Shown: positions 43,836-47,134 of the stretch, one piece after another | Layout: every line of letters starts with the position of its first letter | Position numbering within the stretch: the first letter of the stretch is position 1 | Assembly (NCBI GenBank): GCA_018656555.1 | Contig: JABHZQ010000024.1 | Location: 1-64,000 of the forward strand | DNA length: 64,000 bases | DNA from: an archaeon | GTDB lineage: Archaea > Nanobdellota > Nanobdellia > SCGC-AAA011-G17 > GW2011-AR17 | Direction of reading: 5' to 3' | Notes under the pieces: generated by a model | Told to the model about the DNA's origin: nothing | Databases searched by the model: none | Seen by the model: only the letters and a program-made list of their open reading frames with translations | Program-made: the position numbers and the translations under genes

Positions 43836-44438
43836 ATGGTATCATTGAACTTTACGGATGCACTGGCTGTTATCAAACCATTATTCTTTTTTATAATCGG
43901 AATGGTAATCTATACTGTATTTGTTTTTAAGTTCTATAAGTTCATTGCAAGAAAGGATATCTTTGAATTAAATTTAAATCAATATAATTCAGCTGAACAA
44001 GGTTTGTTTAAACAAGCAATAAGTGTATTCTTTTACATCATAGAATATATATTAATATTCCCTATCTTTGTATTCTTTTGGTTTGGCATTTTAACAATCC
44101 TTTTAGCATTCCTAGCAGAAGGTCAACCACTAACTGCAATCCTTTTAGTATCCATGGCTTTGATTGGTACAGTAAGAGTAGCAGCTTACTATAGTGAAGA
44201 CCTTTCAAGGGATGTGGCAAAAATGTTACCCTTTGCTCTATTGGGTGTGTTTCTAATCAACATAACCAATTTTTCATACATAGCTGCTTTTGAATTACTT
44301 AGTGATCTTCCTTCACACTGGGAAATAATTCCTTATTATTTAATTTTCATAATACTTCTAGAATTTATTCTAAGAATAATAACTCTTCTAGCTGGTTGGA
44401 TTATTCCAAATGAAGAACCTGAACCAGAAGAAATGTAA
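43836..44438 (+). CDS. Polytopic membrane protein
   Basis: Multiple TM segments; TATA box ~30 nt upstream. Confidence 0.6.
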   Translation: MVSLNFTDALAVIKPLFFFIIGMVIYTVFVFKFYKFIARKDIFELNLNQYNSAEQGLFKQAISVFFYIIEYILIFPIFVFFWFGILTILLAFLAEGQPLTAILLVSMALIGTVRVAAYYSEDLSRDVAKMLPFALLGVFLINITNFSYIAAFELLSDLPSHWEIIPYYLIFIILLEFILRIITLLAGWIIPNEEPEPEEM

Positions 44439-44440
44439 AT

Positions 44441-44625
44441 GCGCGGGACAGGTCTTTCGTAAAACTTTTTGATTAAACTTTTTAAAAAGTTTATTTCGAA
44501 CCTGCGTAGGCACTAAGCCACTGGATATCTTACTTTAGATAGACAGGTTGTCATCTATGGTCTTGAGTTTAGCCAAGTATTGGTATATACTTACCAGCCC
44601 GTTTGACCACTCCGGCACCCGCGCA
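44441..44625 (-). tRNA. tRNA-Leu(CAA) with three introns: 44594-44570 (25 nt), 44562-44528 (35 nt, 37/38), 44495-44455 (41 nt, T-loop)
   Basis: Spliced 84 nt: GCGCGGG TG CCG GAGTGGTCAAA CGG G CTGGA CTCAAGA TCCAG TGGCTTAGTGCCTAC GCAGG TTCGAAA CCTGT CCCGCGC A. BHB H helices: GGCT/GGCT (with GU), CTCA/TAAG (one mismatch), TTCG/CGAA. Confidence 0.87.
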
Positions 44626-44664
44626 TAAACTATCAAGAAAAAATATGTCTTTATAAAAGTTCCT

Positions 44665-45228
44665 CTAAGTGAATGTAGTCTTATCTGAAAGATCAATCAC
44701 AACATCACACAATTGAGACAATTCATTAATAATTTTCTTATTTGTATGTTCATGTATTCCTAAAATAATCCCATTCTTACTATGATTTCTCAATTTAGTT
44801 ATCAAGAAGTGTGTAAACTTAATCGCAGAGTCTAAACCATTATACAATGCAAGAGTATTCAATGAATCAAGATAAACAAATGATAGTTCCTCCTTAGCAA
44901 CTAATGAACTTAAAGCAATACCCAACCTTGTCAAACTATTTTCAGTACCAATAAAGATACAATTCCCTATATCTTCTTCCTCTCTTTTAGTAACACAATC
45001 AACAAAAAATAATCTAGAAGTATCTACATCTTTTCTTTGTAAGGTAGTTACTAAATTATTAAATGGCCTATTCAAAGAAATATATGTCCCTCTATGTCCT
45101 GGATTAATCTCCAACCAGTGCTTAACCATAAACATGTTAATCTCTTGATAATGTTCAGTTGGAATAATGGTCAAGATAACAGAATCAGGAGGAATACCTT
45201 CTAACTTGCTTTTAATTAGCTCAATCAT
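44665..45228 (-). CDS. KaiC/RecA-like fold protein lacking a Walker A (tentative)
   Basis: SLVAKEELSFVYLDSLNTLALYNG Walker-B-like context; no GxxGxGKT. Confidence 0.4.
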   Translation of the reverse strand: MIELIKSKLEGIPPDSVILTIIPTEHYQEINMFMVKHWLEINPGHRGTYISLNRPFNNLVTTLQRKDVDTSRLFFVDCVTKREEEDIGNCIFIGTENSLTRLGIALSSLVAKEELSFVYLDSLNTLALYNGLDSAIKFTHFLITKLRNHSKNGIILGIHEHTNKKIINELSQLCDVVIDLSDKTTFT

Positions 45229-45307: not shown

Positions 45308-46459
45308 ATGAATTTTGAAAAGAGGATTGTTATAGCTTTTAGTATAATTCTTGTCTTGATAGTCGGTCTTTCATTCTTAGATGGGTTTACAGGGTTTGTG
45401 GTGAATAGTTATGGTGGGGCTGTAGAATACCAAGATGCATTACCTGGAAACACAATCAAAGGAGATTTACTAGTTAATGTAGAAGGAGAAGGGATAATCA
45501 AAGAGGTTGTTGATGTTACTGGAGAGGTTGCAGATTGGGTAATACTTGAAGATACTAACTACATCTTTGTTCCAAATGTAGACAATAAAATCCCTTACAA
45601 AATTGTAGTACCTGAAGACGTTGAACCTGGAACTTACAAATTAAGATTCTCTGTAAGGTCTGTTCAAGATTTTGAAAAAGAGTCTATTCTTTCCAATCAA
45701 GTTGTGTCTAGCTTAGATGTATTAATCAGTATAGGTGAAGAAGAAGAAAATAGATTTACAATTAAGGAATTTGAAGTTTATGATTTTGAAGAAACAAACC
45801 AACTTGATTTCTTGTTAGAGATAGAAAATAAAGGGAATAATGAAGAAGACTTAGAAATAAGTGTGATCCTAACAGATTTAGAAGGAAACTACCTAACTGA
45901 AAAGAGATTTAGTGGAAAAATGTATGCTTTTGAAACTCAAGAGATAAAGTATGGATTTGCTCCAGAACTTGAAGCTGGAGATTATATCGCAGAGGCTTAT
46001 GTTCAAGTAGGTGATTTAAGAAAAAAAGAAACATCATTTTTCAAAGTTTACAAAGATGGACAAATGATTAAAAAAGCATCAATCTTAGGTACTGGAATCT
46101 ATGTAAAAAATGAGGAAGTGTTTGTCACAACAATTGTTAAAAATACTGGAGAGAGTGTCTTAGAACTATCTCTAACTGGAACAATAGAAGGAAGAGAAAC
46201 ACAAACAAGTACAGAGAGAATACATCCTGGAGATTATGAAACATTTGAGTATCAATATGGTGCATTTGAAGCAGGAGACTACCTTCTAACAACAGAAATA
46301 CTCGCTCATTCTGTGGTTTTAGGAGATCAACTAACAAATTTATATGTTTCAGATGAAGGTGTAGTAACTTTAGAAATAGGGTTTATCGGAATATTAATAT
46401 TAATTATTATCTCTCTAATCTCTTCCCATTTTTTATTAAAGAAGAGGTTAAAAAAATGA
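45308..46459 (+). CDS. Surface protein with N- and C-terminal TM and beta-sandwich (COG1470-like) domains
   Basis: LPGNTIKGDLLVNVEGEG, LEAGDYIAEAYVQVGDLRKKETSFFKVY, C-terminal TM. Confidence 0.65.
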   Translation: MNFEKRIVIAFSIILVLIVGLSFLDGFTGFVVNSYGGAVEYQDALPGNTIKGDLLVNVEGEGIIKEVVDVTGEVADWVILEDTNYIFVPNVDNKIPYKIVVPEDVEPGTYKLRFSVRSVQDFEKESILSNQVVSSLDVLISIGEEEENRFTIKEFEVYDFEETNQLDFLLEIENKGNNEEDLEISVILTDLEGNYLTEKRFSGKMYAFETQEIKYGFAPELEAGDYIAEAYVQVGDLRKKETSFFKVYKDGQMIKKASILGTGIYVKNEEVFVTTIVKNTGESVLELSLTGTIEGRETQTSTERIHPGDYETFEYQYGAFEAGDYLLTTEILAHSVVLGDQLTNLYVSDEGVVTLEIGFIGILILIIISLISSHFLLKKRLKK

Positions 46460-46575
46460 ATGACCTATTTATGTTGGGGGTTGGATTGGGAACATCAGCA
46501 TTAGGAACTATTTTTCTTGTCTATGCAAGAATAATAAAGAAAAAACTAAGAAGAAGAGTTCTACGGGGTGATTAA
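46456..46575 (+). CDS. 39-aa single-TM microprotein MNDLFMLGVGLGTSALGTIFLVYARIIKKKLRRRVLRGD
   Basis: ATGA overlap with upstream gene, overlaps GTG start of downstream gene. Confidence 0.6.
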   Translation: MNDLFMLGVGLGTSALGTIFLVYARIIKKKLRRRVLRGD

Positions 46576-47134
46576 TATTAAAAAATTGATAGTACTCTTA
46601 ATAACATTTCTTGTTACCATTGTAGCTATATTTGTAGCATTACCAAGTGCAGTCAATTTACTTGGGTTCTCAGGAGAACAATTCTTTGGTGGGGAATTAT
46701 GGCGAATTCTAACTTTTCCATTAACTCACGCTACTAGTGCACATCTAATTGAAAATGTTGTGGCTTTATTCATAGTCTCTCTCTTAATGCTAGAATTTAA
46801 ATTAAGTACAAAGGATACAGCATACCTCTTCATGGGCTCTTCTGTGTTAGTTGCATTTGTTGTTGGACTAATTTTACCCTCTGTGATTATAGTTGGTGCA
46901 TCATTAGGACTTTATGCTTTGTATGGGGGGTTAACAATAAGGGGGAAAGAATATGTGCCATTATACATAACTTGGGGTTTAATAGGAATAGTAATCTTTT
47001 TAAATTTCGTTTACTGCATTAAGTATGGGACTGGTTTGGAACAACCCATATTTCACACTATTGGGTTTGTAGCGGGTGTTACATTTTTAGGTGTAAAAGA
47101 TAAATTAAAAAGAAAAAAGAGGATCTTTAAATGA
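46568..47134 (+). CDS. Rhomboid-family intramembrane protease-like protein (GTG start)
   Basis: ELWRILTFPLTHATSAHLIENVVALF, GASLGLYALYGG, FHTIGFVAGV. Confidence 0.7.
   Translation: MINIKKLIVLLITFLVTIVAIFVALPSAVNLLGFSGEQFFGGELWRILTFPLTHATSAHLIENVVALFIVSLLMLEFKLSTKDTAYLFMGSSVLVAFVVGLILPSVIIVGASLGLYALYGGLTIRGKEYVPLYITWGLIGIVIFLNFVYCIKYGTGLEQPIFHTIGFVAGVTFLGVKDKLKRKKRIFK

Follow-up and report, generated by a model that had tools for sequence, protein, structure and literature searches.

Transfer RNAs interrupted by several introns are best known from the Thermoproteales. Up to three BHB introns per tRNA are established there, T-loop introns included (PMC8450103, PMC4090602), and introns at 30/31 and at 59/60 have been described in archaea (PMC4090602; PMC8450103). 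Multi-intron tRNAs have also been reported from Nanoarchaeum equitans and from ARMAN-1/2 (PMC4033280). The passages of PMC4090602 and PMC4033280 that concern Fujishima 2010 describe similar introns at different positions and in different tRNAs of the Thermoproteales, and treat this as large-scale intron transposition. For the splicing endonuclease EndA, the alpha4 enzyme is reported to be restricted to canonical motifs (PMC4033280), and according to reviews it is CSL- or ASL-bearing EndA that accompany many relaxed introns (PMC6379350; PMC4033280; PMC12397907).

We have analyzed a tRNA-Leu(CAA) gene in a stretch of archaeal DNA of 64,000 nucleotides (the window). The locus is very probably a functional, single-copy gene of a small, symbiont-type DPANN archaeon of Nanoarchaeota type, cut by three predicted BHB introns. 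An initial annotation made from the sequence alone had proposed the three introns and a probable DPANN genome.

Structure of the gene and its predicted introns

The gene occupies positions 44440-44624 of the minus strand and comprises four exons (31, 7, 32 and 14 nt) and three introns (25, 35 and 41 nt), which interrupt the tRNA at 30/31, 37/38 and 59/60 in tRNA numbering. The mature tRNA has 84 nt with A73 counted in. The initial annotation had the strand and the length of 185 nt right, but its coordinates (44441-44625) were one base off: A44440 is the discriminator A73, and T44625 lies outside the gene. The parts are as follows, in the direction of transcription.

44650 to 44657, minus strand: TATA-box-like sequence TTATAAAG, about 29 nt upstream of G1, read by eye
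44594 to 44624, minus strand: exon 1, 31 nt, GCGCGGGTGCCGGAGTGGTCAAACGGGCTGG; positions 1-30, with the acceptor 5' strand, the D arm and the 5' part of the anticodon stem; 30 of its 31 bases are those of the intronless gene L117 of genome G001
44569 to 44593, minus strand: intron A, 25 nt, TAAGTATATACCAATACTTGGCTAA; at 30/31, inside the anticodon stem
44562 to 44568, minus strand: exon 2, 7 nt, ACTCAAG; positions 31-37, with the anticodon CAA
44527 to 44561, minus strand: intron B, 35 nt, ACCATAGATGACAACCTGTCTATCTAAAGTAAGAT; at 37/38
44495 to 44526, minus strand: exon 3, 32 nt, ATCCAGTGGCTTAGTGCCTACGCAGGTTCGAA; positions 38-59, with the anticodon stem 3' strand, the variable arm, the T stem 5' strand and T loop TTCGAA
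44454 to 44494, minus strand: intron C, 41 nt, ATAAACTTTTTAAAAAGTTTAATCAAAAAGTTTTACGAAAG; at 59/60, in the T loop
44468 to 44493, minus strand: copy of a hairpin element, TAAACTTTTTAAAAAGTTTAATCAAA, within intron C
44440 to 44453, minus strand: exon 4, 14 nt, ACCTGTCCCGCGCA; positions 60-73, with the T stem 3' strand, the acceptor 3' strand and discriminator A73

A BHB motif, with 3-nt bulges around a 4-bp core, can be drawn at each junction, and the three differ in quality. Intron C shows every part of the canonical motif (hBHBh'), with the T stem as outer helix, a core of TTCG/CGAA, bulges AAA/AGA and an inner helix TAAA/TTTA that is extended by CTTTTT/AAAAAG. Intron A has the core GGCT/GGCT, bulges GGT/AAA and the inner helix AAGTAT/ATACTT, and because its outer helix consists of a single base pair it is classed as relaxed (HBh'). 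Intron B has the core CTCA/TAAG with one C-A mismatch, i.e., three of four core pairs, and an offset inner helix ATAGA/TCTAT. Moving its splice points to 38/39 gave a worse core than at 37/38 and was rejected. The recurrence of the TAAG strand in the tRNA-Leu(CAA) introns of G022, G037 and G021 (L136, L145 and L146) argues that the imperfect core is real.

The elements that had been read for intron C, and the 7-nt exon carrying the anticodon, are thus all found in the sequence. The core, bulges and inner helix given for intron A stand as well, on a weaker motif than had been implied since its outer side is one base pair. Intron B was placed correctly; no structure had been offered for it, and the mismatched CTCA/TAAG core supplies one.

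Removal of the three introns leaves a complete tRNA, as had been claimed: in ARAGORN the spliced 84-mer gave a complete cloverleaf of type II and was identified as tRNA-Leu(caa). Before splicing, the gene yielded no tRNA call from ARAGORN, even with introns allowed, and it was missed by the Rfam tRNA model, bearing out the warning that a standard one-intron search could overlook it. The precursor folds better than 200 of 200 shuffled sequences (z = -3.1), and the region of intron C in the T loop gives z = -3.0.

Intronless orthologues and gene copy number

Comparison with orthologues, which the initial annotation had recommended, revealed intronless copies in G001, G009, G011, G013 and G017. 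The closest, L117 (Rfam score 55.5 bits), comes from G001, which belongs to another genus of the same family. It shares 79 of 83 positions with the spliced product, and a match of this extent to an uninterrupted gene means that the tRNA reading is not due to chance; three other intronless orthologues differ at 13-16 positions. The anticodon stem is changed with compensation, being CTGGA/TCCAG in the window and ACAGA/TCTGT in G011.

Gene order is conserved too. In G001, L117 has a homologue of the window ORF 43836-44438 no more than about 0.9 kb away. In G009 and G011 the intronless gene is at the same place, adjoining homologues of ORFs 44665-45228, 45308-46459 and 46568-47134, and in G013 and G017 it is beside a homologue of ORF 44665-45228. 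Together, the match to L117 and the gene order in G009 and G011 provide independent confirmation of the exons.

A search of the window's own metagenome-assembled genome (MAG; 97.7% complete) with the spliced sequence returned the pieces in the window, tRNA-Leu(UAG) and one weak match of 18 nt. No second tRNA-Leu(CAA) was found by this search, so that the locus is the only recognizable CAA gene of the MAG. Neither of the findings that would have spoken against the initial proposal, another intact tRNA-Leu(CAA) gene or orthologous loci lacking the exon sequence, was therefore made. Should UUG be read by a tRNA-Leu(UAA), the cell may be able to do without the gene.

tRNA introns elsewhere in the genome and the order

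The tRNAs of the genome were surveyed in the stretches around search hits. ARAGORN called introns in tRNAs read as Ile, Gly, Val, Trp, Phe, Ser and Tyr. The tRNA-Leu(UAG) gene (L056) has an intron at 30/31, the same site as intron A and one used in other genomes too, and tRNA-Asp(GTC) (L061) has a T-loop intron with the core TTCG/CGAA of intron C. Three further tRNA-like stretches on contig C7 (L058, L059 and L060) have truncated or interrupted D arms and partial Rfam matches; they are probably further tRNAs with D-arm introns.

Of 29 tRNA-Leu(CAA) genes of the order read by eye, 18 have no intron, five have one and five have two; the window's alone has three. We scanned 104 genomes of the order for T-loop introns built like intron C, with its TTCG/CGAA core, by means of the pattern GGTTCGAAN{11,41}CGAANNNCC. 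There were 25 matches in 18 genomes, each in a tRNA-like context with five of five T-stem pairs. A looser pattern was dropped, as its backwards control gave more matches in the window's own genome than the real one. The tRNA-Leu(UAG) gene L165 of G066, which belongs to another, distant family, has introns at the same three sites and a 7-nt exon, GCTTAGG. Since T-loop introns and multi-intron tRNAs recur in this way, the window gene is an extreme case of an order-wide habit. A DPANN order is thus shown to be rich in multiple and non-canonical tRNA introns, and searches not allowing several introns will undercount the tRNA sets of its genomes.

Introns were also seen in D loops (L134 in G007, L175 in G055, L179 in G066, L184 in G056 and L181 in G031), four of the five genes having a T-loop intron in addition. 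Five genomes of the order have a tRNA-Leu with the loop CTAAGGA (L123, L128, L166 and L179) or CTAAGAA (L170). Both loops give the anticodon AAG with A34, a state that is, so far as we are aware, unusual in archaea.

The splicing endonuclease

The genome contains an EndA gene, a 177-aa ORF that is its one match to PF01974 (E = 3.6e-28). The protein is of alpha type. By sequence, its nearest solved structure is the alpha chain of N. equitans EndA (3IEY_A), followed, among single-subunit enzymes, by that of M. jannaschii (1A79). It does not carry the extra loop that marks a loop-bearing, broad-specificity EndA, some nine residues long with a conserved lysine and close to the active site: it reads YGEPLGKTKFQYS where the A. 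pernix enzyme (3P1Z) carries the Crenarchaea-specific loop, and the ASL is absent too. No long insertion at the loop position was found in 30 homologues from the order. Across 60 genomes there was exactly one match to the catalytic domain in 55, none in four and two in one (6% contamination). As a rule, then, the order appears to have one short EndA gene per genome, devoid of a Crenarchaea- or ARMAN-type loop, which goes beyond what was known.

A loopless alpha-type enzyme is in tension with the relaxed motifs of introns A and B. Either the restriction of alpha4 enzymes to canonical motifs does not hold in this order, or a divergent EndA partner was missed. In the second case introns A and B would be spliced by an ordinary (alpha-beta)2 enzyme as in N. 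equitans, whose beta subunit had escaped the profiles. We found no second, structural subunit with PF01974, a profile that a very divergent beta could escape; crenarchaeal beta chains were likewise absent from the sequence hits, and the nearest solved structure is after all the alpha chain of an enzyme of just this kind. On the other hand, the N. equitans beta chain is itself found from the alpha chain examined here (E = 3e-13), so a similar beta should have been seen, and a single family match is the state of 55 of the 60 genomes. A hidden beta subunit is an appreciable possibility. With a single-gene, alpha-type, loopless EndA, as it appears, alongside common non-canonical and multiple introns, the order offers a direct test case for the accepted link between EndA type and intron diversity.

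A dispersed hairpin within intron C

The body of intron C has the form TAAACTTTT-N-AAAAGTTTAATCAAA and matches a hairpin dispersed in related genomes. A strict pattern, AACTTTN{1,12}AAAGTTTAANCAAA, was found in 20 of the 104 genomes of the order, compared with one match for the same pattern read backwards as a control, and in 35 of 384 genomes of a class-level sample. No Rfam family matches the hairpin. Copy number reaches 40 in G031 and 17 in G047. Outside these two genomes the flanks of 30 copies were read by eye: tRNA introns, in the D, T or anticodon loop, account for 18 of them and 23S rRNA (confirmed by Rfam) for one, and one more is beside a tRNA. Others start at an ORF's stop codon. 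Compensatory changes occur in the stem (TAAAC/GTTTA and TAAGC/GCTTA), with which the tail covaries (AATC or AAAC vs AAGC).

Several copies deserve individual description. In L237, L238, L241, L243 and L249 (G047), L186 (G062), L194 (G076) and L201 (G044) the hairpin begins exactly at the TAA stop of the ORF. The 23S rRNA copy in G084 (L260:1783-1809) is in a region resembling a small intron, and a LAGLIDADG-like ORF was seen by eye further downstream in the same rRNA gene. G031 contains tandem arrays of a 34-nt unit carrying the hairpin, two to four units long (L215-L222, e.g., L215:201-330), within a larger intergenic repeat with the common flanks ATTCATCCCAGCTA ... ATAAGACTGAGTTTTCTTGCTTACTGATTCATAAA. 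A transposase origin of these arrays was considered and is unsupported, the ORFs around them, read by eye, being different and none common to all. In virus contigs 14 stretches match the hairpin, mostly at gene ends. A few chance matches are to be estimated in so large a collection, and therefore we do not claim a virus vector.

How did the hairpin come to be at so many sites? It could be immobile, a stable structure selected convergently as, for example, a binding site or a stability element. This would suit the copies that start exactly at stop codons (L186, L194, L201 and several in G047) and the similar hairpins at gene ends in some virus contigs, and also the concentration of differences between copies in the loop. 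Against it, the unpaired tail AATCAAA is as conserved as the stem, and copying fits better with contexts as unrelated as 23S rRNA and 34-nt tandem arrays. Convergent selection accordingly retains some plausibility, and it is on the conserved tail and the unrelated contexts that we consider spread by copying, through recombination or transposition, more likely.

Given that its body is a copy of this hairpin, intron C at least was probably not formed de novo but derived from a repeat or intron already present, through insertion or recombination. The wide recurrence of the hairpin on which intron C is built hints at how such introns spread, and the family is a specific candidate for the way in which archaea acquire tRNA introns.

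Probable function of the gene and likely history of its introns

The remaining alternative, that a former tRNA-Leu(CAA) gene has been broken by insertions and is decaying unprocessed while another tRNA-Leu reads UUG, might draw on the three insertions at once, the rejection of the gene by tRNA finders and the tying of relaxed introns to other forms of EndA than the loopless one, but is most improbable when the exons are intact (79 of 83 positions shared with the intronless relative), each insertion coincides precisely with a site of BHB formation and its removal leaves the cloverleaf perfect, several further tRNA genes of the order have introns at these sites, and a replacement CAA gene was not found in the MAG.

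In the functional gene that we prefer, each intron would be released by EndA cuts at its two bulges, and the four exons would then be joined by a ligase of RtcB type. Intron A would probably be removed before intron B, because it splits the anticodon stem, and the outer helix of B, which is that stem, can form only once A is gone. Intron C would be removed independently.

The distribution of introns suggests their relative ages. Introns A and C are absent at the locus in the sampled relatives of the family, and were most likely gained on the window lineage. Intron B may be older, since an intron at 37/38 is also present in two relatives within the family, G004 and G002. From about position 4 up to the intron, the 5' exons of tRNA-Leu(CAA) and tRNA-Leu(UAG) are the same; we have considered that intron A could stem from gene conversion by tRNA-Leu(UAG), or from an independent gain at a favored site.

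A broader proposal would be that the tRNA introns of this DPANN class were seeded by the hairpin (TAAACTTTT-loop-AAAAGTTTAATCAAA) moving among the loops of tRNAs (D, anticodon and T), 23S rRNA and gene ends, with the relaxed introns removed by a homotetrameric EndA that lacks a specificity loop. We regard this combination as speculative and rather unlikely as a whole. If true, it would go against the rule that relaxed introns co-evolve with loop-bearing enzymes.

Comparison with known systems

The literature searched, with partial coverage, yielded no account of the introns of this order or of the hairpin. A three-intron tRNA is as a kind already known, and the initial annotation overstated its rarity in calling it striking in a DPANN archaeon: the surprise is smaller, multi-intron tRNAs being known from N. 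equitans and ARMAN-1/2 and tRNA-Leu genes with two or three introns recurring in the order. What is new here, and worth testing, is the EndA context and the probably hairpin-derived intron.

The window gene resembles those of Thermoproteales such as Pyrobaculum in having up to three BHB introns per tRNA, at canonical and non-canonical sites. Unlike them it belongs to a DPANN order whose EndA is loopless and apparently alpha-only, and one of its intron bodies belongs to a hairpin that is also found outside introns. N. equitans and ARMAN-1/2 are, like the source of the window, small DPANN archaea with non-canonical introns, but the EndA of N. equitans is of (alpha-beta)2 type and that of ARMAN is an epsilon-2 enzyme bearing the ASL loop, and the one EndA gene found here, of 177 aa and alpha type, shows neither feature. 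As in the intron transposition of the Thermoproteales, similar introns occur at different positions in different tRNAs of the order; in contrast to that system, the shared sequence is a hairpin of 25-30 nt whose other sites include 23S rRNA, stop codons and tandem arrays.
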